A stretch of DNA of 64,000 nucleotides, taken from Colwellia sp. MB3u-45 (GTDB lineage: Bacteria; Pseudomonadota; Gammaproteobacteria; Enterobacterales; Alteromonadaceae). The stretch covers positions 310,001-374,000 of the forward strand of contig NZ_JACGVC010000044.1 of assembly GCF_014077005.1 (NCBI RefSeq), read 5' to 3'. The position numbers and the translations under genes are program-made. The notes under the pieces are model-generated. The model saw only the letters and a list, made by a program, of their open reading frames with translations, ran no database searches and was not told the origin of the DNA. Positions 25,572-63,671 of this stretch are shown here, one piece after another. The stretch's first letter is position 1; each line of letters opens with the position of its first letter.

Positions 25572-25597
25572 GTTAGTTTTAGTTAAGTAAAATCATA

Positions 25598-25630
25598 AAA
25601 GCCATTGAGAACGACTCAATGGCTTTTTTA
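25598..25630 (+). terminator. Terminator after receptor gene 1
   Basis: A nine-base perfect stem GCCATTGAG/CTCAATGGC with loop AACGA, preceded by A and followed by T-run. The same hairpin is repeated after receptor gene 2. Confidence 0.9.
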
Positions 25631-25785
25631 TTTTCTTTATTAGGTATTTTAAACAGCAGTAATTGGGCAGTAATTTAATGCAATTGGTATAAGTCTGTCC
25701 TGTTCAATCTGAGCACACTACAACCAAGATATTTACCTTTCTGTTTTTCTTTTATTTTAGATAATCAATCAACCAATAGATAAAA

Positions 25786-27119: not shown

Positions 27120-30017
27120 ATGTATAACAATAGCAAAATAGCTAAAGCAGTACGCGTCGCCATGATGTTTGGCGCAGGCGCAGCTGCTGCAATTTCAGCA
27201 CCTGCATTTTCAGCAGAAGATGAATCAGCTGAAAGTGTAGAGCGTATTGAAGTAACAGGTTCTCGTATTAAGCGTGCTGATATGGAAGGTGCAAATCCTG
27301 TCCAAGTTATCACTCGCCAAGACCTTGTTGCATCAGGTATCACTAATATGGGTGATATCTTACGAGAAATTCCATCTGTAGCTGGTGCCGCAACTAACAC
27401 CGCGATCAATAACGGTGGTTCAGGTGCCATTCGTGTTTCATTACGTGGTTTAGGTTCTCCTCGTACATTGGTACTTTTAAATGGCCGCCGTATGGTTGCC
27501 TCTGGTACTGGTGCAAACAGTTCAGTTGATTTAAGTACTATCCCAACTGCCATTGTAAAACGTGTTGAAGTTTTAAAAGATGGCGCGTCAGCTATCTATG
27601 GATCTGATGCTATCGGTGGTGTTGTAAACATTATCACTCGTGATGACTTTGAAGGCTTCGAATTCAATGCAGGTTATGATATCGGCACTGAAGAGTGGGA
27701 TGGCGAAACCAAAAATATGGATTTAACCATAGGTTTTTCAAGCGATAAAGGTAATGCTGTTGTAAATGCATACTATGTTCAGCAGGGCGCACAATGGTCT
27801 GGCGATCGTGATTGGTCTAAATTCGATTATGGTATGAATGCAGATGGCGAACTTATTCCAGGGGGCTCTTCGGCTCCACCATGGGGACGTTACAACGGTG
27901 TAAACTCAGCTAACCCAGATAACTTTACTCAACTTCGTTTAGATGAAGATGGCAACCCTGATTTAGATACAGATGGTAACCAACAATTTGACTTACCTAC
28001 AGGTACTTGTAACTCATTTACTCACGGCGCAGCAAATGGTCCAGGTCAATCTGATCCTTCTAACCCAGCAAATGCTACGGGTTATGATTGTTGGGATTGG
28101 GATAAAGATACTTACAACTTCGCACCAGCTAACTATCACTTAACGCCACAAGAGCGTTACGGTATTTATGCTTCAGGCTCTTATGAAATCACTGATACTG
28201 TTCGTGTATTTACTGAATTAAGCTTTAACCGTCGTACTTCTAAAACAAAACTAGCACCGTTGCCATTAGCACCATTAGCATTTTTTGGCTGGGGTGATGC
28301 AACTTACTCTGCAGACAACTACTACAATCAACAATTTGGTCCAAAAGACAAAAATGGCGATACAGTAGATATTGCTGATTGGCGTCGTCGTATGGTTGAA
28401 ACAGGTGGACGTGATTCACAATTCCGCGTTGAAACGGTACGTGCTATGATTGGTATGGACGGTGAATTTGACAATGGTTGGGGCTGGGAAGCAAGTTACA
28501 TTTTTGGTCGTAACGATTCAGCAACACAAGGTGCTGGCGGTGTAAACTTTGAAAAAGTTAGCGCAGCTGTTGGTCCATCTTTTATGGATGACCTTGGTAA
28601 TGTAGTTTGTGGTACTGAAGCTGCTCCAATTGCGGGCTGTGTATCATTAAATACCTTCGGTACTCCTGGTACAGATGGCGAAATTAGCCAAGAAATGATG
28701 GATTATATGTTGTTTGAAGCACATGATGTGGGTTCTAACGAACAGCAAATCATGTCTGCAAGTATCTTTGGTGATGCGTTTGAATTACCCGCTGGTACTG
28801 TAGGTTTCGCATTAGGTGTTGAACATCGTGAAGAAAAAGGTGCTGATTTTCCTGACGCGCTAATTGCTTTAGGTATTACATCTGGCTCATCGCGTACATC
28901 AACGGTAGGTAGCTACGAAGTAGATGAAGTATTCCTGGAAACTAATGTTCCACTATTAAGTGGTGTTGTTGGCGCTGAAGTATTAGAAGTTGATTTAGCG
29001 GTTCGTTACTCTGACTACAATACATTTGGTGATACAACTAACCACAAAATTGGTGTTCGTTGGGTTCCATTTGATGGACTAATGGTACGTGGTACATCAT
29101 CAACAGCATTCCGTGCTCCATCTACATCTGACCTGTTTGCTGGTTCTTCAGACAACAGTCCAGAAGTAGTTGATCCTTGTAACACAAACCCAACAGCATT
29201 CTGTATTGCTGATGGTGTTCCTGCTGCCGGTTTCGAACCCATTGGTGACCAATTATCTTCAACGCGTGGTGGTAGTCAAGATTTACAACCAGAAGAAGCT
29301 GATATCTTTACCGCTGGTATTGTATATAGCCCTGATTTCGTAGAAGGTTTGTCATTAACTTTAGATTACTGGAATATCGAAATTACGAGTGCAATTAGTA
29401 CGTTAGGTGAGCAGTTAATTCTAGATAGCTGTGCAGCAACTGGCGAGCATTGTGATAAAATTATACGTTTCGGTGCTGATAGCACACTTTACGGTAACTC
29501 AATTGACATTGATGACCGCACAACTAACGTTGGTGGTGTTGACTCATCTGGTTACGATTTTAACATTCGTTACTCTACAGACCTTGAAGGTGGCACGATA
29601 ACTTACAACGTTGACACGACTTATTATGATACATATGATATTACACAAGCCAATGGTGATGTAATTGAGAATGCGGGTTATTTTTACCGCAATAGTGGTG
29701 ATGGTAACTTCCCTGAATGGAAAACAAATGCTGACGTTCGCTACACAAGCGATGATTGGTCTGCAGCATGGTCAGTTCGTTACATTGGTGAAGTAGATGA
29801 ACCATTTGACGGTGACTTCCGTACTATTGATGCTCAAATTATTAATGATGCACGCTTTAGTTACTTCATGGATAACATGACGGCAACTATTGGTCTGAAT
29901 AACATATTTGATGAAGATCCTCCGTATGCAGATACTGGCTTCAACGATAATACAGACCCGCGTACTTATAACACGTCAGGTCGTCACGTTTACGTAACTT
30001 TAGGATTAGCTTTTTAA
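27120..30017 (+). CDS. TonB-dependent outer-membrane receptor, copy 2
   Basis: Paralogue of the receptor at 22770, 965 residues from the ATG at 27120 (CAGGGAG upstream). Signal peptide, plug and the C-terminal third of the barrel are nearly identical to copy 1. The clearest difference is around residues 245-300. There copy 2 carries an Asp-rich insertion (LDEDGNPDLDTDGNQQFD), whereas copy 1 has a shorter FRGFDEDADGCTDF; both keep a pair of cysteines. The variable part should be an extracellular loop, so the two receptors may differ in ligand. It ends YVTLGLAF and is followed by the same terminator. Confidence 0.93.
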   Translation: MYNNSKIAKAVRVAMMFGAGAAAAISAPAFSAEDESAESVERIEVTGSRIKRADMEGANPVQVITRQDLVASGITNMGDILREIPSVAGAATNTAINNGGSGAIRVSLRGLGSPRTLVLLNGRRMVASGTGANSSVDLSTIPTAIVKRVEVLKDGASAIYGSDAIGGVVNIITRDDFEGFEFNAGYDIGTEEWDGETKNMDLTIGFSSDKGNAVVNAYYVQQGAQWSGDRDWSKFDYGMNADGELIPGGSSAPPWGRYNGVNSANPDNFTQLRLDEDGNPDLDTDGNQQFDLPTGTCNSFTHGAANGPGQSDPSNPANATGYDCWDWDKDTYNFAPANYHLTPQERYGIYASGSYEITDTVRVFTELSFNRRTSKTKLAPLPLAPLAFFGWGDATYSADNYYNQQFGPKDKNGDTVDIADWRRRMVETGGRDSQFRVETVRAMIGMDGEFDNGWGWEASYIFGRNDSATQGAGGVNFEKVSAAVGPSFMDDLGNVVCGTEAAPIAGCVSLNTFGTPGTDGEISQEMMDYMLFEAHDVGSNEQQIMSASIFGDAFELPAGTVGFALGVEHREEKGADFPDALIALGITSGSSRTSTVGSYEVDEVFLETNVPLLSGVVGAEVLEVDLAVRYSDYNTFGDTTNHKIGVRWVPFDGLMVRGTSSTAFRAPSTSDLFAGSSDNSPEVVDPCNTNPTAFCIADGVPAAGFEPIGDQLSSTRGGSQDLQPEEADIFTAGIVYSPDFVEGLSLTLDYWNIEITSAISTLGEQLILDSCAATGEHCDKIIRFGADSTLYGNSIDIDDRTTNVGGVDSSGYDFNIRYSTDLEGGTITYNVDTTYYDTYDITQANGDVIENAGYFYRNSGDGNFPEWKTNADVRYTSDDWSAAWSVRYIGEVDEPFDGDFRTIDAQIINDARFSYFMDNMTATIGLNNIFDEDPPYADTGFNDNTDPRTYNTSGRHVYVTLGLAF

Positions 30018-42332: not shown

Positions 42333-42346
42333 CTGATGTAGATCAG
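42333..42346 (+). promoter_or_regulatory. FNR-type box upstream of the ligase operon
   Basis: CTGAT-GTAG-ATCAG, a perfect five-base palindrome that contains the FNR/ANR core TGAT-N4-ATCA. A possible -10 (TTTAAT, 42366-42371) lies at the distance expected of a class II activated promoter. The ATG of the ligase gene follows 71 bases later. Confidence 0.75.
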
Positions 42347-42416
42347 TAAAAGTAAACGTAAAAAATTTAATGAACACTATACTTCTTACATCATTTGTTT
42401 GATTGATCTTGCTCGC

Positions 42417-44195
42417 ATGTCTGAAAATATAATTAATAAGATGTCATATAATAGCAGTGATACAAATTTGCATGATTATCAGCAGTCTTGTGATGACTTT
42501 AATTGGCAAACCGACCCCAAAAAAACACTTAATATTGCCTACCAAGCCGTTGATAAACATTTAAATACCAGCATTGAAAACAAAGTAGCACTTCGCTGGC
42601 TTGGTAAAGATGAACAGTTAATTGATTATAGTTACCGTGATTTAGCAGAACAAACTAGCCTTTTTGCGAGTGTGTTAGCTAAGCTGGGTTTTGAACAAGG
42701 CGTACGGGTATTTAGCTTGGTGGGGCGATTACCGCTACTGTATATCTCAGCGTTAGGTACGTTAAAGTTTGGCGGCGTTTTCACCCCCTTATTTTCTGCC
42801 TTTGGCCCTGAGCCTATTCGTTCTCGCATGGAGATAGGCGAAGTTAATGTATTAGTTACCACTAAGCGTTTATATGATAAAAAAATTGCCACTTGGTGGC
42901 ACGAACTGCCTCATCTTAACGTTATTCTATTCATCGATAGCCCTGAAGATGAAAAAATTTCAGTTGCCTCTTCTCATCCCTTAGACAAAGGCTGTTATTG
43001 GTTAACCATACTGCTTACTGATGCTGACACCAGATATCCCTGTGCTAAAACTCATGCTAATGACATGGCTTTGCTGCACTTTACCAGCGGTACAACGGGT
43101 CAACCTAAAGGCGTTATTCATGTGCATCAAGCGGTGGTTGCCCATCAATCTTCGGCAAAGTACGCCTTAAACTTAAAACAAGACGATATTTATTGGTGCA
43201 CTGCTGATCCTGGCTGGGTGACGGGTACCTCGTACGGCATTATTGCGCCACTTTGTTTGGGCGTGACAATGATTGTTGATGAAGCTGAATTTGAAGTTGA
43301 GCGTTGGTATCACATTTTACAGCAACAAAAAATAACCATTTGGTATACCGCGCCAACCGCGATTCGCATGTTGATGAAAGCAGGAACAGCTATTCGTGAA
43401 CAATATGATTTATCCGCGTTAACCTTCATCGCTAGTGTTGGTGAACCTTTAAATGCTGAAGCCGTGCGATGGAGTGAAAAAGTACTGGGTTTACCTTTTC
43501 ATGACAACTGGTGGCAAACAGAAACAGGCGCCATCATGATTGCTAATTTTGCCAGTCAGCCAATAAAACCCGGTTCAATGGGCTTACCTTTACCGGGTAT
43601 AACGGCCGCTATTGTTAAGCGTAATGCACAAGGGCGTATTGAAACAATAGAGCAAGCTATGCAAATTGGTGAGCTGGCATTAAAACAAGGCTGGCCTTCA
43701 ATGTTTCGTGGCTATTTGCATCGTGAAGAAAAATATCAACAGTGTTTTCAAGACGGTTGGTATTTAACTGGCGATCTCGCTAAGCGAGACGCACAAGGCT
43801 ATTACTGGTTTGTAGGTCGGGCTGATGATTTGATCAAATCGTCAGGTCATTTAATTGGCCCATTTGAAATTGAAAGTGCCTTGATGGAGCATGAAGCTGT
43901 CGCTGAGGTGGGTGTTATTGGTATTCCTGACGAAATCACCGGGCAAAAGGTTAAAGCCTATGTGACGTTAAACCCTGATGTTGAATGCACTGAGCACAAC
44001 TTAGCCGCATTACAAAAAGAGCTAAAAGGTTTTGCTCGTAAAAAATTAGGCGCGGCAGTTGCACCTAAGGAAATAGTTTTTCGAAAAAATTTACCTAAAA
44101 CTCGCAGTGGTAAAATAATGCGGCGCTTATTAAAGGCACGTGAACTCAATTTACCCGAAGGTGATATTTCCACCTTAGAAAGTGATGAACAATAA
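42417..44195 (+). CDS. AMP-forming acetyl-CoA synthetase-like ligase
   Basis: 592 residues from ATG 42417; TTG 42399 and ATG 42441 are alternatives and none has a good ribosome site. The adenylation core shows [20 protein letters not shown] (P-loop), [17 protein letters not shown] and the catalytic lysine region [12 protein letters not shown]. It is closest to AcsA-type acetate-CoA ligases, although other short acids cannot be excluded. It opens an operon with 2-oxoacid dehydrogenase genes, an ACP and PEP synthase. An FNR box precedes it. Confidence 0.85.
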
Positions 44196-44245
44196 TGTTC
44201 AATAAGAAGGTAATGAAAAATAGTAAGAAAAAAGAGTAATAAAAA

Positions 44246-45265
44246 ATGAATGATAAATTACATCTTGATAAAGCGCACTTACTTGCACAATTAAAACAAA
44301 TGTTACGCATTCGTCTTTTTGAAGAAAAATGTGCTGAGCTTTATGCACAAGAGAAAATACGAGGTTTTCTTCATCTTTATATTGGCGAAGAAGCCGTAGC
44401 CGTAGGCGTGATGGCGGCGCTTTCCCCAGAAGATAATATTGTGGCCACTTATCGTGAACATGGTCACGCGCTTGCGCGTGGTTTATCAATGAAGTCTGTG
44501 TTGGCTGAAATGTATGGTCGCACGAATGGTTGCAGTAAAGGGCGTGGCGGCTCTATGCACCTATTTGATAAAAAGCAGCACTTTTATGGTGGCAATGCCA
44601 TTGTTGGAGGTGGCTTGCCTTTAGCCACAGGTTTAGCTATGGCCAATAAGCAACTGAAAAAATCAGCGATAGCCGTGTGTTTTTTTGGCGAAGGAGCCGT
44701 GGCAGAAGGTGAGTTTCATGAAGCAATGAATCTGGCCGTGTTATGGCAATTACCCATACTATTTATTTGTGAAAACAATGGTTATGCCATGGGTACGGCA
44801 TTGGCCTTATCTGAATCAGAAATCAATATTGCCAAAAAAGCACAAAGTTATGGCATGCCAGCGCAGCAAGTCGACGGTATGAATGTGGTCAACGTGGAAG
44901 CGGCAACGACTAAAGCCGTTCAGCACGTTAGAAGTTATCAGCAACCTTATTTTTTAGAGTGTCAGACTTATCGTTTTCGAGGACATTCAAGCTTTGATGG
45001 TCAGCTATACCGTGATAAAGCAGAAATAGAACAGTGGAAAAAGCACGGTCCTGTAAAGCAATTAAAGCACTGGTTGATACAAAATCATCAGCTCAGTGAT
45101 AGTGACTTTAACGGCATTGAATCAGAAATTAAACAAGAGATAATCGAAGCTATTAACTTTGCCGAGCAAGGACAATGGGAGCCGGTTGAAGATCTTTGTA
45201 AAGATGTTTATAGCCCAGCAACACCGAAAATAAATATCAAGGCAGAACAAGGAGGCTTGGCATGA
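44246..45265 (+). CDS. 2-oxoacid dehydrogenase E1 alpha (PDH/acetoin type)
   Basis: Thiamine diphosphate-dependent decarboxylase subunit, 339 residues. The TPP-binding motif runs from [17 protein letters not shown] to [19 protein letters not shown]-like segments ([17 protein letters not shown]) and [18 protein letters not shown] are typical of PDH-E1alpha and AcoA. The partner E1 beta gene overlaps it by four bases. Which 2-oxoacid or acetoin is used cannot be told; the split alpha/beta form differs from the AceE-type PDH normal in this group. Confidence 0.9.
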
Positions 45266-46263
45266 AGGTTCAAACAAACAGCAGTCAAACAATGACTTAC
45301 CGCGAAGCCTTACGTGCGGGTATTGAACAATGCCTAAACGACGATGAACGTACATTTTTAATGGGTGAAGACGTTGGACGTTATGGTGGCTGTTATGGCG
45401 TAAGTAAAGGCTTGTTTGAACATTATGGCGCAGAGCGAATTATTGATACGCCGCTATGCGAATCAGGTTTTGTCGGGGTAGGTATCGGCGCCGCGTTAGG
45501 GGGAATGAGGCCGATAGTAGAGGTGATGACGGTTAATTTTAGCTTGTTGGCAATGGATCAAATTGTTAATAGTGCCGCCACGTTACGTCATATGTCAGGT
45601 GGTCAACTGAATGTCCCCATTGTTATTCGCATGGCATGTGGTGCCGGCTTACAACTGGCCGCGCAACATTCTCATAGCTGGGAAAATTTATACGCCCATA
45701 TTCCTGGTTTAAAAGTATTAAGCCCAGCAACGCATAACGATGCCCGTTATATGCTATTACAAGCAATACAAGACCCTGACCCTGTGCTTATTTTTGAACA
45801 TGTCATGTTATTAAATAACCAAGGTGAAGTCTTTAATGCACCAGACGCTGATATGGAAAAAGCCTTAGTGCGTAAGCAAGGTACAGATATTACCCTGATC
45901 ACCTATGGGGGCAGCTTACCTAAAGTTTTAATGGCAGCCTCTGCGCTTGACACATTGAATATTAATGTCGAGGTTGTTGACTTACGTTGTTTGCGACCAT
46001 TAGATAACCACACCATTTTAGCCAGTGTTAAGAAAACACACCGCGCTATTATTATCGATGAAGGCTGGAAAACCGGCAGTTTAGCGGGTGAAATCAGCGC
46101 CATTATTATGGAGCAAGCTTTTTGGTATTTAGATGCGCCAGTGCAGCGAATTTGTACTCAAGAGGTGCCTATTCCTTACCCAAGTCACCTCGAACAAGCG
46201 GCTTTACCTCAGGTAGAACAAATCATCCGTTGTGCAACAACTTTATTTGCAGGTGAACAATAA
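45262..46263 (+). CDS. 2-oxoacid dehydrogenase E1 beta
   Basis: 333 residues, the second half of the E1 heterotetramer. Recognisable blocks are [60 protein letters not shown] and the C-terminal [16 protein letters not shown]. It begins with ATG inside the end of the alpha gene (GGCATGA). E2 follows after 51 bases. Confidence 0.92.
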
Positions 46264-46314
46264 CGCTGCGCTTCAACGTTCAGCAGGTCATGTAAAATAG
46301 GGGGGGAAGGCAGC

Positions 46315-47583
46315 ATGAAAAAATCCATAGACATTACCATGCCATCACTGGGGGCAGATATGAGCGAAGGCATGTTGGTCGAATGGTTAATCAAGGTAGG
46401 TGATAAGGTAAAACATGGCGATATTATTGCCGTGCTTGAAACACAAAAGTGTGCGATTGACATGGAAGCCTACCATGACGGCATTATTACCCAGTTATTA
46501 GTTCAACCGGTAAACACTGTCTCTGTTGGTAGCGTATTGGCAAGGATAGAAATCGAAGAAAAGTCACTAAATGAATCTAAAAATCAAAGCATTAGCACTG
46601 AAGGCATCATCAAAGAACCAGTAACCACTGAACAAACAACACCCGAGAAAATAATTGATGAGCCGGTTTCATTATTGGCAGAAGCCTTGACAGAAAAACC
46701 GTTAATAAAATCGCAAAAAAAATCGACTGAAAAGCTAAACATCAATACCAAAACCAATAGGGTACTTGCTTCGCCCATTGTTCGTAAAATAGCAAAAGCA
46801 CAGCAGCTAGATTTGTCGAGGATTAAAGGCAGTGGTCCTAATGGTGGCATCATACTAAAAGATATTACGCAGATAGCACCCAAAACGCGCTTAACTGAAG
46901 GCGAGTCATTAACAAACATGCGTAGCGCGATCGCCGCTGCTATGACGAAATCTAAGCAAGAAATCCCCCATTTTTATCTGAGTGTAGACCTGCCTATAAA
47001 TAAGGCACAGCAATGGCTACAACAAGCCAATAAAGACAAAACACCCCAAACACATATTTTACTTATTGCACTAGTACTTAAAGCGGTTGCTATAAGTTTA
47101 CAAAAATATCCGCAATTAAATGGCTTTTACCAAAAGGATCATTTTGAGCCAGCGAGTGAAATCAATATTGCCAATGTCATTAGTTTACGAGCTGGTGGGG
47201 TAGTTGTACCTGCATTGCGCCATGTCGAACAGTTATCGGTGCCAGAAATTATGGCTACTTTGCGTGATATCACGCGTCGAAGTCGAGCGATTGAACGTGG
47301 TGAGCGTTTACGTAGCTCAGAACTGATGGGCGCCACGATTACCATAACCAATATGGGTGAGCGTGGCGTTGATCAAGTTTTTGGCATTATTTATCCGCCA
47401 CAAGTCGCGATTATCGGTGTTGGTAAAGTAAAAAAAGTGCCACAAGTATACGATGAAAAAATTGATATTGGTGAGCAAATAACGCTTTGTTTAAGTGCCG
47501 ATCACCGAGTCGTTGATGGCATGCTCGCGGCGAAGTTTTTAAATAGCTTGGCTAAAAATTTACAAAAACCGGAGCAATTATGA
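46315..47583 (+). CDS. 2-oxoacid dehydrogenase E2, dihydrolipoamide acyltransferase
   Basis: 422 residues. One lipoyl domain (about 1-85) has the lipoyl-lysine K45 in LETQKCAIDME (normally ETDKA). A flexible Thr/Glu-rich linker precedes a peripheral subunit-binding domain (VLASPIVRKIAKAQQLDLSR, about 147-185) and a catalytic domain. Its active-site HRVVDG is around residue 397. A run of seven G lies in the ribosome-binding region before the ATG. No E3 lipoamide dehydrogenase is encoded in the window, so it must be borrowed from elsewhere. The stop overlaps the ACP start. Confidence 0.92.
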   Translation: MKKSIDITMPSLGADMSEGMLVEWLIKVGDKVKHGDIIAVLETQKCAIDMEAYHDGIITQLLVQPVNTVSVGSVLARIEIEEKSLNESKNQSISTEGIIKEPVTTEQTTPEKIIDEPVSLLAEALTEKPLIKSQKKSTEKLNINTKTNRVLASPIVRKIAKAQQLDLSRIKGSGPNGGIILKDITQIAPKTRLTEGESLTNMRSAIAAAMTKSKQEIPHFYLSVDLPINKAQQWLQQANKDKTPQTHILLIALVLKAVAISLQKYPQLNGFYQKDHFEPASEINIANVISLRAGGVVVPALRHVEQLSVPEIMATLRDITRRSRAIERGERLRSSELMGATITITNMGERGVDQVFGIIYPPQVAIIGVGKVKKVPQVYDEKIDIGEQITLCLSADHRVVDGMLAAKFLNSLAKNLQKPEQL

Positions 47584-47825
47584 ATTCAACAGAAATCGAG
47601 CGCTTGATTATCGAGGCTATAAAGGAAGTTGCGCCTGAAGTTGAAAAAAACACCATTGATTTTGACGAAGATATCCGTGAAGAGTGTGATTTAGACTCAA
47701 TGGACTTTATTAATTATTTAGCGGCGTTGCAAAAATCAACGGGAATAAAAATTATTGAGGGTGATTACCCTAAATTTCATAGTATTAATAGTGCGTTAGC
47801 TTTTCTTAACGATAAGAATAGTTGA
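47580..47825 (+). CDS. Acyl carrier protein
   Basis: 81 residues with the phosphopantetheine site S40 in ECDLDSMDFINYL. It is acidic and four-helical in pattern. The ATG overlaps the E2 stop (ATTATGA), so it is co-translated with the dehydrogenase. It is not the fatty-acid ACP, which lies in a fab cluster in related genomes. No ketosynthase or phosphopantetheinyl transferase is near; its role with an E1/E2 complex is unexplained. Confidence 0.88.
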   Translation: MNSTEIERLIIEAIKEVAPEVEKNTIDFDEDIREECDLDSMDFINYLAALQKSTGIKIIEGDYPKFHSINSALAFLNDKNS

Positions 47826-47865
47826 ATTTATAGTCGGTAATGTCGAGCGGATAAAGGTGATAAAT

Positions 47866-50379
47866 ATGCAATCAAAACAACAAGCGCAAACTATTTTTTG
47901 GTTTGAAAAATTAACGCTCGCTAACCTTGAACAAGTGGGTGGAAAAAACGCCAGTTTAGGCGAAATGATCGCCAATATGAGTGAAACACCAGTGCAGGTG
48001 CCTATTGGTTTTGCGACCAACGCACAATTATTTGTCGATTTTTTACAACAAAATAAGCTCAATGAAAAAATAAAACATCATATTGATGCCTATGGTTCAG
48101 CACAACAAAACTTGGCCACTACCGGCAGTGCGATCAGAAAATTAATTGCGAATGGTGACTTTACCGAGCAGCAAAGCAGTGAGATTACTCAAGCCTATCA
48201 AGACTTATCAAAAAGAATACAAGCAACTCAACACAACAAACTTAATCAAAATGACTTAGTAAACCAAGCCCCTTATATGGCCAGTGTTGCGGTAAGAAGT
48301 TCGGCGACCGCTGAAGATTTACCCGAAGCAAGCTTTGCCGGACAACAAGAGAGTTACTTAAACGTTATCGGCATTGAACATTTACTTATTGCCTGTAAAC
48401 AATGTTTCGCTTCGCTTTATACCGACAGAGCCATTGTTTATCGAGAAAAACAAGGCTTTGAACATGAGAAAGTCGCCTTGTCGATTGGTATTCAACAAAT
48501 GATTAATGCTCAAGCAGCAGGGGTGATGTTCACGCTTGATACCGAAACCGGCTTTAGTGACGTTGTTGAAATCAATGGCGCATGGGGATTAGGCGAAACA
48601 ATAGTAAAAGGCAGCGTTACGCCAGATAGATTTATGGTTTTTAAGCCTTTGTTAGCACAAAATATAAAAGTTACCGCTAGTGAGCCACAGCACAATTTTA
48701 GACCTATTATTGAAAAAAAATGTGGCAGCAAATTAGAGAAAATGTGCTTTGCCCATGCGGATAAATCGAAAAGCATTCATCTAAGTAAAGTAGAAGCAAG
48801 TACTGAAACGCTAGCAACCAGTATTGAAGAACGTACCAGCTTAGTGCTATCTGATGATGAAATACTACAACTGGCAAACTGGGCGGTGATAATCGAGAAA
48901 CATTACGGCAAAGCCATGGATATGGAATGGGCAAAAGATAGTATTTCAGGGCAGCTTTACATCGTTCAGGCTCGTCCTGAAACAGTAGAATCACAGAAAA
49001 ATCATTCGGTATTAGTCAATTATAAACTGAAAGAAAAATCAAAAATACTTGTGCAAGGTGCCAGTGTTGGCAGTGCTATTGCTACGGGTAAGGTGTTTAA
49101 AGTCCTTAATCCTGAAGATGTTGAACACTTTCCTGAAGGCGCTATGTTAGTAACTCAAAAAACCGATCCTGACTGGTTACCTTTAATGCGAAAAGCGGCG
49201 GGTATTATTACCGATACGGGCGGACCAACAAGTCACGCAGCGATTGTTAGTCGCGAGCTAAAAATTGCCGCGATTGTTGGCTGTGAAAATGCCACTCAAG
49301 TGCTACAAAATGATCAAGAAGTTACCTTAAGTTGCGCCCAAGGCACACTCGGTATTGTTTATGAAGGCAGATTAGCTTTTGAAACTGAAGAGGTAAATTT
49401 AGCTGACATACCTCACACCAACACAGACATTATGATTAATGCCGCGATGCCCGATGGCGTTTTTAAATGGAGTGCTTTGCCGGTTGCGGGCATAGGTTTA
49501 ACCCGCATAGAGTTTATTATTTCCAGTCAAATAGGGGTGCATCCTATGGCGTTACTACACCCTGAAAAAGTGACTGATAGTAAAGTTAAACAAAAAATTA
49601 GTGAATTGTGCCGTGGCTATGCACAAGGTGGAGATTATTTTGTTGATAATCTTGCGCTAGGCGTCGCTAAAATTGCCGCTTCACAGTACCCAAAACCTGT
49701 GATTGTGCGCATGTCAGACTTTAAATCTAACGAATATCGTGGTTTATTGGGTGGTGAGTTTTTTGAACTGATCGAAGAAAATCCTATGCTAGGTTTACGG
49801 GGGGCCTCACGGTATTACCATAAACTTTATCGCGCAGCTTTTATGTTGGAATGTCAGGCGATTGTTAAAGTGCGAGAGCAGATGGGATTTGATAATGTCA
49901 TCGTGATGATCCCATTTTGTCGCACACCCGATGAAGCCGATAAAGTACTTGCTGTGATGAGTAAAGCGGGGTTAACGCGAGGCGAGAAGGGCTTACAGGT
50001 TTATGTTATGTGTGAAATACCCTCTAATATTATTTTGGCAGCAGAGTTTGCTCAGCGTTTTGATGGTTTCTCTATTGGCAGCAATGATTTAACGCAACTT
50101 GTTTTAGGTATAGACCGTGATTCAACAGAGTTAAAAAGCTTATTTGATGCGAGGAATGATGCGGTTAAAAGTATGATTTCACAAGTGATAAAAGTCGCTC
50201 ATGAGTGTGGTTGCAAAGTAGGGATTTGTGGACAAGCACCTTCGGATCATCCTGAATTCGCCGAGTTTTTAGTGGCATGCGGTATTGATTCTATTTCATT
50301 GAACCCCGACTCAGTTGCTAAGGCTAGCGTACATATTGCTTTAGCAGAAAACACGATAAAAAAGCAGAAAAACATTTAA
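47866..50379 (+). CDS. Phosphoenolpyruvate synthase-like protein
   Basis: 837 residues from ATG 47866 (AAAGG upstream); a GTG at 47857 is in frame. The order is an ATP-binding N-terminal domain (VGGKNASLGEMIANM; VAVRSSATAEDLPEASFAGQ), a phosphohistidine domain with the catalytic His in TDTGGPTSHAAIVSREL, and a C-terminal PEP/pyruvate barrel (GIGLTRIEFI; GSNDLTQLVLGIDRD; VGICGQAPSDHPEFAEFL). This is the PpsA layout (E. coli 792). A housekeeping ppsA may exist elsewhere, so this may be an operon-specific paralogue making PEP from pyruvate. Confidence 0.9.
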   Translation: MQSKQQAQTIFWFEKLTLANLEQVGGKNASLGEMIANMSETPVQVPIGFATNAQLFVDFLQQNKLNEKIKHHIDAYGSAQQNLATTGSAIRKLIANGDFTEQQSSEITQAYQDLSKRIQATQHNKLNQNDLVNQAPYMASVAVRSSATAEDLPEASFAGQQESYLNVIGIEHLLIACKQCFASLYTDRAIVYREKQGFEHEKVALSIGIQQMINAQAAGVMFTLDTETGFSDVVEINGAWGLGETIVKGSVTPDRFMVFKPLLAQNIKVTASEPQHNFRPIIEKKCGSKLEKMCFAHADKSKSIHLSKVEASTETLATSIEERTSLVLSDDEILQLANWAVIIEKHYGKAMDMEWAKDSISGQLYIVQARPETVESQKNHSVLVNYKLKEKSKILVQGASVGSAIATGKVFKVLNPEDVEHFPEGAMLVTQKTDPDWLPLMRKAAGIITDTGGPTSHAAIVSRELKIAAIVGCENATQVLQNDQEVTLSCAQGTLGIVYEGRLAFETEEVNLADIPHTNTDIMINAAMPDGVFKWSALPVAGIGLTRIEFIISSQIGVHPMALLHPEKVTDSKVKQKISELCRGYAQGGDYFVDNLALGVAKIAASQYPKPVIVRMSDFKSNEYRGLLGGEFFELIEENPMLGLRGASRYYHKLYRAAFMLECQAIVKVREQMGFDNVIVMIPFCRTPDEADKVLAVMSKAGLTRGEKGLQVYVMCEIPSNIILAAEFAQRFDGFSIGSNDLTQLVLGIDRDSTELKSLFDARNDAVKSMISQVIKVAHECGCKVGICGQAPSDHPEFAEFLVACGIDSISLNPDSVAKASVHIALAENTIKKQKNI

Positions 50380-50394
50380 TGATTAATCTGCTTT
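50361..50394. terminator. Possible bidirectional hairpin between convergent operons
   Basis: An inverted repeat AAAGCAGA/TCTGCTTT spans the stop codons of the PEP synthase gene and of the convergent electron-transfer gene, which are three bases apart. The loop is long and no T-run is strong, so it is only a weak terminator candidate. Confidence 0.35.
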
Positions 50395-51333
50395 GAGTTG
50401 CTGTAAAGCCTGCCAGCTAAAGGTGGGACCACTTTTACAAACATATTGATGCTTGATGTAACAATGGCCACATAAACCAAGGGCGCAATGCATGCGTCGT
50501 TCAAGCGCAAGGAAAATAGCATCACTTGTCATGCCATGCTCAGTCAAATAAGTGGCGGCACTACTCATCATCAGCTCTGGGCCACAAAGCAGCGCCGTTG
50601 TGGGTGGGCGAGTAAAAGTGCTCAGCGCTGTGGGTAATATCATTAAAGGGCTACCTTGAACAGTAGTTGCCCGTAATTCATTACTATTATTAGCACGGGT
50701 ATTATCACTGGTATTAGCACGGGTATTGGCATTAGTACTAGTATATTCATCAGTGGCATCAAGCGTATTAAATATCTTGATCTGCTTTTGCCAACGCGCA
50801 CGTTCTGGGGTTAACATCTGCGCGGCTTTATTACGAGCACCATAGACTAAGATGAGTTGCTGTTTATTTTTGGCTTTATTAGCTAGTTTATCAGTTGGTT
50901 TGTCAGGTGAGTTGTTAGTTAATTTGTCTATTAAAGTCACTAAAGGCGCTAATCCGCAGCCACCGGCAATAATGAGCGTATTATGATTAACAATTTTATC
51001 CAACGGCCAACCACGGCCAAAAGGGCCACGCGCACCAAGAATAGCACCTCGTTGCATAGAGAATAAAGTTGAGGTGACTTGCCCCATTTGTCGAATAAAA
51101 GCTTTAAACTCACCTCGTTCATTGGGTGGTTCGGTAAAGGTGAAGGGGGCTTCGCCTATGCTGGGGACATTGAGCATAAAAAACTGTCCTGGTTGTACTT
51201 GTTGCCAATGATGTGGATGATTTTTATTTTTACTGTGTGCTAAATTTAACAGCCGAAACAAATAATGACGAGCCTGCTCACCATCATCAATGTAATCCAC
51301 TAACTCAATACAATCAGGAATATGACTAAGCAT
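50383..51333 (-). CDS. Formate dehydrogenase-associated NAD(P)-flavin reductase subunit (HydG/sulfhydrogenase gamma-like)
   Basis: 316 residues. An FAD-binding barrel (QPGQFFMLNVPSIGEAPFTF; ARGPFGRGWPL) leads to an NAD(P)-binding domain (LIIAGGCGLAPLVTLID) and a C-terminal [2Fe-2S] site (CALGLCGHCYIKHQYVC). This is the gamma subunit plan of sulfhydrogenases and dihydroorotate-dehydrogenase electron-transfer proteins. A low-complexity insertion rich in N, T, R and A at about residues 198-217 is made of 12-base DNA repeats. It is the last gene of the operon, with eight-base overlap with the previous gene. It should connect formate oxidation to NAD(P). Confidence 0.85.
   Translation of the reverse strand: MLSHIPDCIELVDYIDDGEQARHYLFRLLNLAHSKNKNHPHHWQQVQPGQFFMLNVPSIGEAPFTFTEPPNERGEFKAFIRQMGQVTSTLFSMQRGAILGARGPFGRGWPLDKIVNHNTLIIAGGCGLAPLVTLIDKLTNNSPDKPTDKLANKAKNKQQLILVYGARNKAAQMLTPERARWQKQIKIFNTLDATDEYTSTNANTRANTSDNTRANNSNELRATTVQGSPLMILPTALSTFTRPPTTALLCGPELMMSSAATYLTEHGMTSDAIFLALERRMHCALGLCGHCYIKHQYVCKSGPTFSWQALQQLKAD
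50688..50747. repeat. 12-base tandem repeat within a coding region
   Basis: Units TATTAGCACGGG, TATTATCACTGG, TATTAGCACGGG, TATTGGCATTAG and a decayed TACTAGTATATT stay in frame and encode the N/T/R/A-rich insertion of the flavin reductase subunit. Confidence 0.85.
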
Positions 51334-52366
51334 GAGTCACCTCAGGCCCATTTTCTTGACCACCTTCTTTAGTGATACGCTTCATCACTGAATGTACACC
51401 AATAACACCCGGACAGGTTTGTTCACAACGACCACAGCCTACACAGCTATGGCGAGAAAATTCGGTGAAAAATTCATCAGCAAACTTATGCTGCCAAAAA
51501 CGCTCTACTCTTGTGCCTGCTTCTGCCGAGGGATTATTAAAGCTTGCCTCTCGTTGAAAACCTTCATAAAGACAAGAGTCCCAAAAACGCTGCTGACTAA
51601 ACGCATTGTTGTCTTGTTTTATCGCTCGGGTGCCATAACAAGAACAGGTTGGGCAGAGCGTGGTGCAACCAGAACAACCCCGGCATTGTATGGCTAACGT
51701 TTGCCAAAACTCATCAGTTATTGTTCCTGAATTTAACTTTTTTATACCATCAGTGATGTATTTATCGTCAGGAAACTTTTGTTCACATTGATGTAATGTT
51801 AAGTCTCTTTGGGTCAAATAATGCCAGTGTGTTTCTATCAGTGCTAATGCTTGTAATGCTTCTGCAGCTTTACTCGTTTGTTCAATGACTAGCCATTTAT
51901 GACCTAGCGGGTGTAAAACAATATCTGCGTGCTCTTCTCTTACACCAGGCCCTGCATTCACCGTTGGACAAAAACCATGCTCGCAAGGATTAATGCAATC
52001 AAGTCCTACCAATAAGCATTGCTGGCGCCTTGCCTGATAATAGCGATCGTCTTTAAAAAATTTATCTTGATAATGAATAGCCGTTAAATCACAGCTTTGT
52101 ACGCCAAATAAAACAAAAGGCTTAGGTGTAGGCAAGGTTTCTTGAAAATATTCACCATTAAAAACCAGTAAACTTTCTTGTTCGGCAAAAAAGAAGCCTT
52201 TGGCTGAGCTTTGTGGTTTGTCATGCACTAGAGGTTGAGTTTCATCACTGGCGAGTTGTTGCCAATGATATTGGCCATTGTTGTTTGTTACCACCTGATG
52301 AAATTGATAATCCTGAGCTAAATGTGCTTGCAAATGCTGCAAGTCATCAAGTAAATAAATTTTCAT
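51326..52366 (-). CDS. Iron-sulfur electron-transfer subunit (sulfhydrogenase beta-like)
   Basis: 346 residues. Two C-terminal cysteine clusters bind [4Fe-4S]: CRGCSGCTTLCPTCSC and CVGCGRCEQTCPGV. The N-terminal half (FVLFGVQSCDLTAIHYQDKF) is the domain seen in hydrogenase/sulfite reductase beta subunits (HydB/AsrA). The ATG at 52366 lies 20 bases inside the formate dehydrogenase gene with GCAGGAG upstream. It passes electrons between the molybdenum subunit and the flavin reductase. Confidence 0.87.
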   Translation of the reverse strand: MKIYLLDDLQHLQAHLAQDYQFHQVVTNNNGQYHWQQLASDETQPLVHDKPQSSAKGFFFAEQESLLVFNGEYFQETLPTPKPFVLFGVQSCDLTAIHYQDKFFKDDRYYQARRQQCLLVGLDCINPCEHGFCPTVNAGPGVREEHADIVLHPLGHKWLVIEQTSKAAEALQALALIETHWHYLTQRDLTLHQCEQKFPDDKYITDGIKKLNSGTITDEFWQTLAIQCRGCSGCTTLCPTCSCYGTRAIKQDNNAFSQQRFWDSCLYEGFQREASFNNPSAEAGTRVERFWQHKFADEFFTEFSRHSCVGCGRCEQTCPGVIGVHSVMKRITKEGGQENGPEVTHA

Positions 52367-54458
52367 GTTTTGGCTCCTGCTGCAATTGCTCGATTGTTTT
52401 TGGTATTTGCCCTTTCGCTAATGCTGCAACCATGACCGCACAGGCTTTTAACTCAGGCATTTTAGTGATTGGATCTTGCGCGGTATTGGTCAGTTGGTTC
52501 GATGGCGCTTCTTTAAAATGATAAGGCATGCTGACCAGTCCAACAGGCACGTCATTAGTGACTATCGCTCTGGTCTCTAAATAACCTCGACGCGATTTAA
52601 CGCTGACAGCGTCTTGATGGCTGATATTAAGCTTGTTGGCATCAATGGGATTAATAAATAAAATACCAGGGGGTATTTCTCTTTCTAACAAAGGCGAGTT
52701 TCGGGTCATTGAGCCACAACCATAATGAAAATGTAGCCGATTAGTGGTCAGCTGCAATGGAAAGTTTTCATCAGGCATTTCATCGATATCACTATGGTTT
52801 ACTGCAATTAATCTTGCTTTGCCAATAGGAAAACTTGTGCTGTGTAAAATGGCGGTACCCTTGGGGCTGTCATCAGTGCAGGGCCATTGTAAGCCGTAAT
52901 TATCCTCAAGTTTTTGATAATTCATCGCTTGATATGGCGGCGTTAGGGAGGTCATTTCATTAAATACGTCTTGTGAATTTGACCAGTTTAGTTGCTCAGA
53001 TCCCATTTGTTTTGCCAACGCTTGTAGCCATTGCCAATCACCTTTTGCTTGCCCAACAGGCGCGATAACTTGGTTTAATTTCTGTACTCGGCGTTCACAA
53101 TTAGTAAAGGTACCTTCTTTTTCGGCAAAAGAAGCCGCGGGTAAAACAAAGTCGGCGAGCTTTGCTGTTTCGGTTAAGGTGAGTTCAGCAACAACCAATA
53201 AGTCTAAATTTTTGAGTGACGATTTTACATGGTTTTGATCTGGGTCGGTCACTACGGGGTCTTCTCCAAACAGTATAAGTGCGCGAAACTCTCCCGATAA
53301 AGCGCCCTTGGTCATGCCTAATGAGGTTAATCCTGGGGCCTTTGCTAGTTCTGTATGCCAAGCGTTACTAAACTTTTCATGCGCTTTTTCATCATCAACA
53401 TTTTGATAGCCTGGATAAACATTAGGTAAGCAGCCCATGTCACAAGCACCTTGAACATTATTTTGTCCTCTAAGTGGATTGACCCCAGTACCCGGCTTGC
53501 CAATATGGCCACAGATTAACGCTAAATTAGCTAAGGAAATAACATTATTGGTACCGCTCATGTATTGGGTGATGCCCATGCCATAGAAAATCATTGCCCG
53601 TTTCGCTTGACTATATTGCTTTGCGGCTTGGTAAATATCTGTGGCTTTAAGGCCTGTTATTGCTTCAACTGATATTGGCGTAATATTCTCAACGTGTTTA
53701 GCTAGGTGCTCAAAACCTTCGCAACGTTGATCAATAAAATCTTTGTCATACCATTTCTCTTTGATAATGACATGTAACATTGCATTTATCAGCGCAATAT
53801 TACTACCTAACTTGAGCTGTAAATGCAGTGGCGCTAGTTTCGCTAGGCGTATTTTTCTTGGATCAATAACGATTAATTTACAGCCATTGAGGTGTGCTTG
53901 CATAATATGCCCACCTAAAATACTGTGGTTTTCTGTCGGGTCGGCGCCAAAGACCATAATCAAATCAGTGTCGAAAATATCTTTGGCACTATTGGTCATT
54001 GCGCCAGAGCCTAAAGATTGTTTTAAGCCCGCAACGGTTGGGCTATGGCAAATACGGGCACAATGGTCGATATTGTTTGTTTTTAATACCGCCCGAGCGA
54101 ATTTTTGCGCGGCGTAGTTATCTTCATTAGTCGCTCGAGCGCTACTAATAACACCGACACTGTTAGCACCACTATATTCAATAATCTGAGTTAATTCTTC
54201 AGCAATGCTCACAAGGGCTTCTTGCCAACTAATAGGAAAAAATTGATGATTAATACGTTTTAGTGGTTGTGTTAAGCGGTTTTTATCCGTGATGGCATAA
54301 GCGGTACTCCAGCCCTTATCACAGAGTTTCCCTTGACTAATAGGGTGTGAGGGTTGTGGCTCAACACCGATAAGTTTACCTTTTTCGTCTACAGATAAAG
54401 CTATACCACAACCTACGCCACAAAAAGGACAAATAGCATTTATCAGTTTATTAGCCAC
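52347..54458 (-). CDS. Formate dehydrogenase, molybdopterin catalytic subunit (Cys type)
   Basis: 703 residues, molybdopterin/tungstopterin bis-MGD family close to FdhF. The [4Fe-4S] ligands are C10, C13, C17 and C46 (CPFCGVGC and KLCDKGW). The metal ligand is C137 followed by H138 (ARICHSPTVAGL), where E. coli FdhF has selenocysteine. GADPTENHSILGGHI, ALICGHIGKPGTGVNPLRGQ and the C-terminal MGD-binding domain are present. The start is a GTG at 54458 with GGGGGA upstream. An 11-base triple repeat lies in the leader. There is no extra N-terminal ferredoxin domain, so electrons go to the following two subunits. Confidence 0.92.
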   Translation of the reverse strand: MANKLINAICPFCGVGCGIALSVDEKGKLIGVEPQPSHPISQGKLCDKGWSTAYAITDKNRLTQPLKRINHQFFPISWQEALVSIAEELTQIIEYSGANSVGVISSARATNEDNYAAQKFARAVLKTNNIDHCARICHSPTVAGLKQSLGSGAMTNSAKDIFDTDLIMVFGADPTENHSILGGHIMQAHLNGCKLIVIDPRKIRLAKLAPLHLQLKLGSNIALINAMLHVIIKEKWYDKDFIDQRCEGFEHLAKHVENITPISVEAITGLKATDIYQAAKQYSQAKRAMIFYGMGITQYMSGTNNVISLANLALICGHIGKPGTGVNPLRGQNNVQGACDMGCLPNVYPGYQNVDDEKAHEKFSNAWHTELAKAPGLTSLGMTKGALSGEFRALILFGEDPVVTDPDQNHVKSSLKNLDLLVVAELTLTETAKLADFVLPAASFAEKEGTFTNCERRVQKLNQVIAPVGQAKGDWQWLQALAKQMGSEQLNWSNSQDVFNEMTSLTPPYQAMNYQKLEDNYGLQWPCTDDSPKGTAILHSTSFPIGKARLIAVNHSDIDEMPDENFPLQLTTNRLHFHYGCGSMTRNSPLLEREIPPGILFINPIDANKLNISHQDAVSVKSRRGYLETRAIVTNDVPVGLVSMPYHFKEAPSNQLTNTAQDPITKMPELKACAVMVAALAKGQIPKTIEQLQQEPKHENLFT

Positions 54459-54584: not shown

Positions 54585-54598
54585 CTGATATAAATCAG
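54585..54598. promoter_or_regulatory. FNR-type box between fdh and focA
   Basis: CTGAT-ATAA-ATCAG, a perfect palindrome with the FNR core. It is placed 91 bases before the focA ATG and 127 bases before the divergent formate dehydrogenase start, so it could serve both. Confidence 0.75.
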
Positions 54599-54688
54599 CC
54601 AACACTGTGATAAGTATATTTTATGAACAGCTAAGGTTTATTCTTAGGTTTGAAATTATTAATATTTGATCGCACAAGGTTTGTTGAT

Positions 54689-55507
54689 ATGTCTGAGATA
54701 TTTGGTTCTGATGCCTTTTCACCCAAAGAAATTGCCCAGCGTGTTAATGATGTAGGTGTTGCTAAAGTAGGTTTGCCATTTTTATCGTTATTGATGCTGG
54801 GTATGCTTGCGGGGGCATTTATTGGCTTAGGCGCACTTTATTTTGTTTTGATAAAGTCAGATGCCAGCCTGGGTTTTGCTATTAGCCAAGTGTTAGGAGG
54901 GGTAGCATTTTCTCTGGGTTTAATTTTAGTCATTGTTGCTGGCGCGGAATTATTTACCGGTAATAACCTATTAGCGATGGCGTGGGCCGAAGGTAAGATA
55001 TCGACAGCCCAGATCTTAAAAAACTGGCTTGTTGTTTGTTTTGCTAATTTTATTGGGGCAGCAGGTCTTGCCGTATTAGTTTTTCTGTCGGGTCATATTG
55101 ACATGAACCAGGGTGCTATTGCTGAGCAATATATCAAAATAGCGCTTATTAAAAGTAACTTGCCTTTTTGGAGTGCTTTTTTTAAAGGCGTTTTATGTAA
55201 TGTCTTGGTGTGTATGGCGGTTTGGATGGCCTTTGCGGGACGAAGCGTTACAGATAAAGTGATGGCTATTGTTTTTCCTATTTCAGCTTTTGTTGCCGCA
55301 GGGTTCGAACATTGCATTGCTAATATGTACATCATTCCTTTGGCGATGTTAGCGCAGACTTTTGGTAACACCGACTTGGCTGTTGCTGCGATAACTTGGT
55401 CTGGGTTTTTTAGTAATTTAGTACCGGTAATTATGGGTAATCTTGTGGGGGGGAGTGTTTTTGTTGCTTTTGTTTATCACATTATTTATCGGCGCAATCA
55501 GAGTTAA
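54689..55507 (+). CDS. Formate/nitrite transporter family channel
   Basis: Pentameric inner-membrane anion channel of the FocA/NirC family, 272 residues from ATG 54689 (MSEIFGSDAFSPKEIAQRV); a frame from 54650 adds 13 residues without a ribosome site. Six membrane segments; conserved AELFTGNNLLAMAWAEGKIS, FKGVLCNVLVCMAVWMAFAG and GFEHCIANMYIIPLAM. The neighbouring formate dehydrogenase makes formate the likely substrate. Confidence 0.9.
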   Translation: MSEIFGSDAFSPKEIAQRVNDVGVAKVGLPFLSLLMLGMLAGAFIGLGALYFVLIKSDASLGFAISQVLGGVAFSLGLILVIVAGAELFTGNNLLAMAWAEGKISTAQILKNWLVVCFANFIGAAGLAVLVFLSGHIDMNQGAIAEQYIKIALIKSNLPFWSAFFKGVLCNVLVCMAVWMAFAGRSVTDKVMAIVFPISAFVAAGFEHCIANMYIIPLAMLAQTFGNTDLAVAAITWSGFFSNLVPVIMGNLVGGSVFVAFVYHIIYRRNQS

Positions 55508-59442: not shown

Positions 59443-59456
59443 CTGATAAATATCAG
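59443..59456. promoter_or_regulatory. FNR-type box between the ATPase and alcohol dehydrogenase genes
   Basis: CTGAT-AAAT-ATCAG, the third perfect CTGAT-N4-ATCAG of the region, 63 bases before the dehydrogenase GTG and 110 bases before the divergent ATPase ATG. Confidence 0.75.
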
Positions 59457-60813: not shown

Positions 60814-60869
60814 CTTTTTATTATTGATTATTGGCTTGGCATCAGGTCTTAATAAATGAGGGTAATAGT

Positions 60870-61304
60870 ATGGACAAACCTATGTATATTGTTGGCATCG
60901 ATGGCAGTGAGTGGGCAAAAAGAGCGCTAGAACGTGCTATTTTATTAGCTGAAAAAACCGGTGCTAAGGTTAAATTGGTGCAAGTTATTAATCCGATCCT
61001 ATCAGAACCATTTGTTGTTGATGGCGGTATTGTGCCTATGATAAAAAATGAAGATGAAAAAAAAATCGCCTTGAACATGCTGTCGTCTTTGTGTGATCAA
61101 TATAAGAAATCAAATGTTCATTTAGACAGTGAAGTGCTAAGGGGAGACCCAGCTGAAATTTTACATGAGAAGACCAAAACGGAACATGCCAATATGCTTT
61201 TTGTTGGCCGACGAGGTCGTTCGCGTTTTTCTGAAATTATTGTTGGCAGTGTCTCTAATAAACTGGCTCACTCTATCGGCATACCTATTGTGCTAGTCCC
61301 TTGA
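60870..61304 (+). CDS. Universal stress protein UspA family
   Basis: 144 residues from ATG 60870 (GAGGG upstream); an earlier start at 60831 is out of place. Nucleotide-binding residues are visible: VGIDGSEWAKRALE at the N-terminus and GRRGRSRFSEIIVGSVSNKL, the G-x2-G-x9-G-S loop, near the end. It is an ATP-binding Usp. Its neighbourhood suggests anaerobic stress survival. Confidence 0.9.
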   Translation: MDKPMYIVGIDGSEWAKRALERAILLAEKTGAKVKLVQVINPILSEPFVVDGGIVPMIKNEDEKKIALNMLSSLCDQYKKSNVHLDSEVLRGDPAEILHEKTKTEHANMLFVGRRGRSRFSEIIVGSVSNKLAHSIGIPIVLVP

Positions 61305-62969: not shown

Positions 62970-63671
62970 ATGAAACACCTTAAATACGCGGAAGCAAGTA
63001 AATGTGAACGTTGTATTAGATATCAAAATTGCGTTGTCGCACAGTTATTAGGAAGTACGCCTTATATTAAAACCGTTAATTCATATTTACTAAGTACTCA
63101 TGAACACTTATATCATGCGGGTGATGAGCTGAGTGCACTTTATATAATTAAATCAGGGGCAATTAAAAATTATGTTACCCATAATGATGGTGATGAACAA
63201 ATTCTCAATTTTTTAATTCCAGGCGATATCCTTGGCCTTGATGGTTTAGATACACAGCAATATGCTTCTTCGGCTATTGCCTTACAAACCTCAGCTGTTT
63301 GTGCTATTCCATTACAACAGTTTAGAAATATACTCGCTGAGTTAGTACCAAGTTGGTTAATCAAGCTTGCCACCGATAATTTGAGTAAACAGGGGCGTAA
63401 TATTGCTTTGTTAAATAAGAAAAAAGCTAAAGCACGGATAGCGGCATTTTTAATGGATATGGCTGATAACTACAAATCCCTTGGCTGTTCAGATAAGAAC
63501 TTTGAATTAAGTATGTCTCGTGATGACATAGGTAATTATCTAGGGCTAGCATCAGAAACCGTCAGCAGAACATTGACTCAGTTACAACAAGAAGGCTCAG
63601 TAAAAATGGAACGGAGAAATGTAACGATTATAAATGCGCCGCACTTAAGTGAAATGGCGCAACATCGTTAA
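62970..63671 (+). CDS. FNR-type oxygen-sensing transcription regulator
   Basis: Crp/Fnr family regulator, 233 residues. Cysteines C12, C15 and C21 (CxxCx5C) plus C111 (SAVCAIP) match the four ligands of the oxygen-sensitive [4Fe-4S] cluster of FNR. The cyclic-nucleotide-like fold (about 30-150) and a dimer helix are followed by a C-terminal helix-turn-helix with SRDDIGNYLGLASETVSRTL. The E, S and R of ETVSR are those that read TGAT in FNR. It should bind TGAT-N4-ATCA sites, three of which lie upstream in this window. It closes the anaerobic block. Whether it is the organism's main FNR or a second one is not known. Confidence 0.92.
   Translation: MKHLKYAEASKCERCIRYQNCVVAQLLGSTPYIKTVNSYLLSTHEHLYHAGDELSALYIIKSGAIKNYVTHNDGDEQILNFLIPGDILGLDGLDTQQYASSAIALQTSAVCAIPLQQFRNILAELVPSWLIKLATDNLSKQGRNIALLNKKKAKARIAAFLMDMADNYKSLGCSDKNFELSMSRDDIGNYLGLASETVSRTLTQLQQEGSVKMERRNVTIINAPHLSEMAQHR

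Follow-up and report, generated by a model that had tools for sequence, protein, structure and literature searches.

The window analyzed here, a 64-kb stretch of DNA from Colwellia sp. MB3u-45, carries an operon (42399-50379, + strand) that joins an acetate--CoA ligase gene (acs) to genes for the E1 and E2 subunits of a pyruvate dehydrogenase (PDH) and for a dedicated acyl carrier protein (ACP). We found that this five-gene core is conserved beyond chance and that the ACP is not incidental to the operon. The presence of the set in very different bacteria suggests an undescribed handling of acetyl groups under low oxygen. We tentatively favor a reading, to which we would give slightly less than an even chance, in which the operon encodes an FNR-controlled low-oxygen acetyl module built around a private ACP that would be charged by both Acs and the PDH E2.

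An initial annotation had proposed six same-strand genes with tight joins, and we confirmed their coordinates and both of their 4-base overlaps. The genes lie on the + strand in the order acs, E1-alpha, E1-beta, E2, ACP, and phosphoenolpyruvate (PEP) synthase (pps), the sixth being optional. The first (42399-44195, with an alternative ATG start possible at 42417) encodes an AMP-forming acetate--CoA ligase of the PRK04319 type, matching NF003313 with 848.7 bits (cut-off 729). E1-alpha (44246-45265; TIGR03182, 449.9 bits, cut-off 393.85) and E1-beta (45262-46263; NF006667, 396.3 bits, cut-off 321) overlap by 4 bases (45262-45265), and since both meet their family cut-offs we assigned from sequence a pyruvate-type E1. 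The E2 (46315-47583) has one lipoyl domain (PF00364), an E3-binding domain (PF02817), and an acyltransferase core (PF00198). Its gene overlaps by 4 bases (47580-47583) that of the ACP (47580-47825), which matches PF00550 with 23 bits (cut-off 20.8) and which we refer to as ACP group 1. The PEP synthase gene (47857-50379, start possibly at ATG 47866; TIGR01418, 1027.7 bits, cut-off 739.75) follows after a gap of about 31 bases.

While Acs, E1-alpha, E1-beta, and PEP synthase all exceeded NCBIfam cut-offs, the E2 fell under the cut-off in all 25 of the NCBIfam matches listed (of 26), and none of the five NCBIfam matches of the ACP reached its cut-off. The want of any such match above cut-off was the first sign that the E2 and ACP are both divergent. 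As the initial annotation had it, no E3 gene occurs among the six operon genes, nor among the next three. A lipoamide dehydrogenase (Lpd) above its family cut-off is encoded elsewhere in the genome, on contig C35, where it adjoins another E2, and the genome has further E2 genes besides that of the operon. The E3 for the operon's complex would presumably be supplied by this housekeeping lpd gene.

We compared the best 80 of 586 E2-profile relatives in named genomes, ranked by similarity to the window, the closest of which (Colwellia sp. MB02u-6) had an E2 with 89% identity. The prospect that the ACP might be missing from most homologous clusters was not borne out: an ACP of this type stood directly behind the E2 in 79 of 80 loci, and one other gene lay between them in the remaining locus (L035). 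All five core genes were complete in 76 loci, and the other four begin at contig ends that interrupt them. With ACP starts picked by script, the 4-base overlap of E2 stop and ACP start recurred in 57 of 79 measurable loci. E1-alpha and E1-beta could be read as one frame in 19 of 80 loci, and Bacteroidota loci had extra genes inserted among the core genes. The first eight loci that we inspected, all chosen via an ACP or E2 match, shared the same gene order, and four of them were on plasmids (annotated for L013 and L014); these four were examined out of 10 plasmid matches listed (of 628 records).

The PEP synthase gene is not part of this conserved core, being on the same strand somewhere in 7/80 loci and directly behind the ACP in only 3/80. 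The initial annotation's placing of PEP synthase in the same program therefore stands for a few lineages and fails for the family. Two apparent fusions were also rejected. In L042, the Acs match of a seeming Acs-E1 fusion ends at residue 495 and resumes in another frame, making a frameshift likelier. Long ACP frames that suggested an E2-ACP fusion have their ACP portion at the 3' end and gave no in-frame match to E2.

The association also held in samples that were not picked by similarity, namely 369 gammaproteobacterial and 299 Pseudomonadota genomes, although relatedness among the genomes leaves the counts non-independent. We took the 369-genome set as identical for the ACP, E2, and Acs searches. 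With the ACP profile, 18 places in 17 gammaproteobacterial genomes scored at least 71 bits, after which none exceeded 45 bits. With the E2 profile (E ≤ 1e-60, five candidates scored per genome, such that extra E2 genes may be missed), 12 places scored at least 307 bits and the next scored 280. The 12 high-scoring E2 places were exactly the 12 ACP places with an E2 directly upstream, and no ACP match was present within the ~1.5 kb flanks of 18 lower-scoring E2 loci that we fetched. In the Pseudomonadota sample, 14 genomes had an ACP at E ≤ 3.2e-24, three of them already in earlier samples, and the ACP was behind an E2 in all 14. The 12-to-12 correspondence, together with the 80 of 80 named loci, rules out the ACP as a chance neighbor.

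Within the genus, a strong ACP match was found in 2 of 17 genomes, including the window's own, and this patchy presence fits gain and loss of the set. Isolates with the five-gene set belong to what we take, from record titles, to be Pseudomonadota, Bacteroidota, and Actinomycetota. Metagenome bins with the set presumably represent Acidobacteriota-, Desulfobacterota-, and Bdellovibrionota-type organisms, going by their labels as deposited.

We next considered conserved residues, in tallies that count a few genomes twice (L016/L020, L019/L099) and, in the case of Acs, take in the stand-alone pairs. The phosphopantetheine serine reported in the initial annotation proved invariant: Ser40 in the DS motif D39-S40 was present in 99/99 ACP rows. 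Fatty-acid AcpP has the PP-binding family and the invariant Ser in common with this ACP. The counterpart of AcpP Glu41 was Asn in 68/99 rows, and helix II positions 45, 51, and 52, acidic in AcpP, most often held N, H, and K. The match of the window ACP to the AcpP family TIGR00517 was 23 bits against a cut-off of 70.45. A stray fatty-acid ACP is ruled out by helix II, without its acidic pattern in the window ACP, and by the score gap with profile A1 (≥ 71 versus ≤ 45 bits).

In the E2, lipoyl Lys45 and catalytic His397 and Asp401 were each present in 97/97 rows, and R292 in 96/97. Comparison E2s were mostly gapped at R292 (16/17), a figure that overstates the difference because gaps take up much of the alignment in 3 to 5 of those 17 rows. 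Y360 was present in 83/97 rows, compared with Asn in 13/17 comparison E2s. When 24 of these E2s were placed in a tree with 17 others, three of the latter from the same genome, the operon E2s formed a single group with 100/100 support; three comparison rows were left out of this tree and some of its branches are long. As for Acs, W371 and W372 (94/94 each) and V347 (93/94) form what we take to be the acetate pocket, and K572 (94/94) what we take to be the catalytic Lys. These features and its family (NF003313) are those of PRK04319-type AcsA, from which the present Acs differs in its companion ACP.

Having established that the ACP accompanies the E2, we asked how widely it accompanies Acs. Searching the 369 genomes with the window Acs (E ≤ 1e-150, three candidates scored per genome, such that additional Acs genes may be missed) returned 18 genomes, 17 of which were the 17 ACP genomes. 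The ACP was therefore found in 17/18 genomes with this Acs and 0/351 others (Fisher 2e-28, uncorrected for relatedness). In the sole Acs genome without an ACP match (G419), the contig ends 25 bases behind the acs match. The E2 partners the ACP in 12 of the 17 ACP genomes. The six gammaproteobacterial ACP places (6/18) without an E2 alongside hold a related ACP, group 2, of which three were directly behind acs without this PDH (G143, G266, and G360) and three stood apart (G127, G257, and G179:C149). Both acs and ACP are present in G127 and G257, with acs on another contig. By eye, a GC or GCxxYL-like C-terminal motif was common to 5/6 of the E2-less ACPs and the second ACP of L047.

Partial rank correlations of ACP distances across 87 operons, in which shared descent is uncorrected, were 0.32 for Acs, 0.18 for E2, 0.16 for E1-alpha, and -0.05 for E1-beta. 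These distances agree with co-occurrence, which favors Acs as the ACP's wider partner. The initial annotation had supposed that the ACP takes acyl groups from the E2 or else serves the ligase; the ligase gains from the 17/18 co-occurrence and the three acs-ACP pairs without PDH, while a role with the E2 would concern 12 of 17 genomes.

A second arrangement of the Acs and ACP pair was also apparent, in which acs or the second ACP group has as its neighbor a Pat/ACD-like gene, that is, an ADP-forming acyl-CoA synthetase-like gene with a Pat-type acetyltransferase end. This gene adjoins acs in L130 (at 5284-7980), L131, L132, L246, and L249 and, in L136 and L047, the second ACP group. The L130 and L136 proteins scored under NCBIfam cut-offs, and the remaining ones owe their assignment to BLAST matches with L130. 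In L047, a Desulfobacterales bin, both ACP groups stand in tandem behind the E2 (11248-11867) and are followed by the Pat/ACD-like frame.

Both FNR-type sites and a regulator gene within the window support the proposed link of the operon to FNR. An FNR-type palindrome, CTGATGTAGATCAG, lies upstream of acs at 42333-42346 and is identical in a sister Colwellia (L020). It is an exact match to CTGATNNNNATCAG, has two mismatches to TTGATNNNNATCAA, and was undetected at one mismatch. No canonical TTGAT box was found at the acs promoter at ≤ 1 mismatch, the CTGAT variant being present instead. This box alone proves little because ~15% of random windows of related loci score as well. Two further exact CTGATNNNNATCAG palindromes occur between fdhA and focA (54585-54598) and between P-type ATPase and Zn-alcohol dehydrogenase-like genes (59443-59456), giving three in three promoters of one island against a post hoc expectation of 0.04. 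Genome-wide, CTGATNNNNATCAG occurs in 17 places, 6 of them within 47 kb around the operon (~1.5e-5 under a uniform draw, likewise post hoc as the CTGAT pattern was chosen after seeing the sites), and the pattern read backwards occurs in none.

Across the family, the best TTGATNNNNATCAA match within 300 bases of acs scored 9 or 10 of 10 in 17/89 related operons, compared with 2.6% of random windows drawn from those loci, indicating that some members of the family are enriched in FNR-like sites. An FNR-type regulator is also encoded in the window (62970-63671, + strand; HTH_Crp_2, 62.7 bits at C44:373432), and its translation contains C12-x2-C15-x5-C21, C111, and the recognition helix ETVSR. We take four Cys ligands and an ExxSR recognition helix to be the hallmarks of FNR, and this regulator has both. 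The operon is probably oxygen-regulated, with FNR as the putative controlling factor judging from these sites and the regulator gene.

The island that includes these promoters continues on the - strand with HydG-like, HydB-like, and formate dehydrogenase alpha (fdhA) genes (50383-54458), the last matching TIGR01591 with 799.6 bits, above its cut-off, and the HydB/HydG-like genes falling below theirs. On the + strand, a FocA-like transporter of the formate/nitrite family follows at 54650-55507 (TIGR00790, 223.3 bits, slightly under the cut-off of 232.3), and by eye a universal-stress-like protein is encoded at 60831-61304. By BLAST, relatives near the operon in the 80 loci, 51 of which exceed 18 kb, numbered 8 for fdhA, 4 for focA, 8 for the P-type ATPase, 3 for the FNR gene, and 1 for the universal stress protein. 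The island companions are not general to the operon family. Further exact CTGATNNNNATCAG palindromes occur in the genome at C44:374020, 389588, and 399203 (L233 and L234), and frames in the next 30 kb resemble by eye tandem stress proteins, Lon, Hsp20, and stomatin/NfeD, with one frame of 2838 aa. By eye, a frame resembling a FabH-type ketoacyl-ACP synthase is also present in L234 (9390-10502; C44 ~402.4 kb), ~45 kb from the ACP. Outside the island, a perfect canonical TTGATTTTTATCAA site lies at 20506-20519 of the window, between - strand frames.

In the mechanism that we tentatively favor, Acs would activate acetate to acetyl-AMP, E1/E2 would move acetyl from pyruvate onto the lipoyl arm, and both Acs and E2 would pass their acetyl on to the ACP's phosphopantetheine arm. 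The ACP would thereby replace CoA within the complex (carrier priming), with the E3 drawn from the housekeeping lpd gene. From sequence we infer a phosphopantetheinylated ACP that carries acetyl and is loaded by Acs and E2. The genome has acetate kinase and no match to pyruvate formate-lyase, which together with Lpd and the other E2s leaves room for a PDH-based anoxic route. If the mechanism is right, a protein-bound acetyl pool would replace or shadow acetyl-CoA in many bacteria during low-oxygen metabolism, and carrier-primed dehydrogenase chemistry, until now a proposal for natural products, would enter central metabolism.

Several observations weigh against this mechanism. Stray frames over core genes aside, no neighbor cluster occurred in more than 12/103 loci, where neighbors were named for eight proteins and 19 window proteins were scanned, and so no consumer of acetyl-ACP is evident. 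The genome has one phosphopantetheinyl transferase match, which is AcpS-sized, and the ACP is without much of the acidic helix that AcpS binds. The E2 retains the normal catalytic His and Asp. Acs keeps the counterparts of Arg584 (93/94) and Ala357 (94/94) of Salmonella Acs, which are CoA contacts. Use of CoA by Acs is therefore probably retained, and these residues speak against its exclusive use of the ACP.

The same kept residues lend support to the rival with most support, which we consider somewhat unlikely but closest to our own explanation in standing: PDH and Acs make acetyl-CoA conventionally, while a bound ACP serves in regulation or assembly, its acyl state adjusting Acs or the complex. 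Pat-type lysine acetyltransferases are a known kind of Acs regulator, and the invariant Lys572 is what we take to be the acetylation site of Acs. The Pat/ACD-like gene was beside acs in 5/6 gammaproteobacterial genomes in which no PDH operon was seen to include acs (for G419, not within the 1.5 kb seen), it also adjoined the second ACP group of L136 and L047, and the ACP follows Acs more widely than it follows E2. Against this rival, the ACP gene in the PDH operon overlaps E2 and not acs (57/79). A Pat-like match was near the PDH operon in L047 only, and the sub-cut-off and BLAST-derived naming of these proteins further tempers the argument.

It is improbable, in our estimation, that the ACP instead feeds an acetyl primer to fatty acid or polyhydroxyalkanoate (PHA) synthesis at low oxygen as a store of carbon and electrons. 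This possibility draws on a Sulfitobacter plasmid (L014), where the operon is immediately preceded (1326-6582) by genes of the PHA synthase-like, fabI, enoyl-CoA hydratase/phosphate acetyltransferase, and acetate kinase types, and on the PHA-synthase-like cluster in 6/103 loci. The other 97/103 loci were without that PHA cluster in the stretch examined, and the helix II acidic residues that fatty acid synthesis enzymes use on AcpP are mostly absent.

Marginally less probable again is a CoA-independent fermentation unit, which would take the place of pyruvate formate-lyase. Pyruvate would be converted to acetyl-ACP, Acs would run in reverse with AMP and PPi to yield acetate and ATP, and NADH would drive the reduction of CO2 to formate by the formate dehydrogenase with its HydB/HydG-like subunits, the formate being exported through the FocA-like channel. 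The formate part is disfavored by the scarcity of a window-like fdhA (8/80 loci) and FocA (4/80) near the operon. Very improbable is that the ACP provides octanoyl groups for lipoylation of its E2: lipoyl assembly begins from octanoyl-ACP and the genes for the ACP and the lipoylated subunit overlap, but six group 2 ACP genes have no adjoining E2, three of them being directly behind acs, and no LipA, LipB, or LplA was among the eight neighbor proteins scanned, although no search was aimed at them.

When placed in context of known systems, the operon resembles the split-E1 PDH complex in having the same E1 families above cut-off and the same lipoyl, E3-binding, and acyltransferase domains in E2. 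It differs in its private ACP and Acs, its missing E3, and an E2 in its own group. As in carrier-primed 2-oxoacid dehydrogenases, E1, E2, and a carrier are encoded together (complete in 76/80 loci, the other 4 at contig ends). NapB/NapD presumably group with the quinocarcin and scleric acid cassettes. An SclQ1-4-type E1/E1/E2/ACP set has been described in scleric acid biosynthesis (PMC6335953). According to the same paper, QncN/QncL/QncM (quinocarcin) and SclQ1-4 likewise comprise E1-like, E1-like, lipoyl/E2, and small ACP components, by which an activated C2 unit is made and attached (PMC6335953). Compared by description, those cassettes belong to natural-product lines with a proposed ketose phosphate start, whereas the Colwellia operon has Acs, a TIGR03182-type E1-alpha, and an anoxia-type island.

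Another precedent is the pepteridine pathway of Photorhabdus (plu2792-2799), with an E1 and a fusion of E2 to a nonribosomal peptide synthetase. In PMC5384830, its carrier arm is proposed to be primed from 2-oxoacids in place of CoA, its E3 is considered likely host-supplied, naphthyridinomycin and others are cited as analogous, and a branched-chain ACP-loading enzyme of Craig and Brady is cited. The pepteridine carrier, a T domain, is part of a fusion with E2 and a condensation domain, whereas the Colwellia carrier is a stand-alone ACP. No natural-product family was among the 19 window proteins scanned. In the open-licence papers searched, we found no description of an acs-PDH-ACP operon, nor any report of carrier priming by a PDH-like set for a central-metabolism operon. 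What is new in this case is the Acs partner, an operon with FNR-type signals, and the wide distribution.

Elsewhere in the window, two large TonB-dependent receptor-like genes (22725-30017) encode proteins of 948 and 980 aa, with partial matches to B12/siderophore receptors under cut-off.

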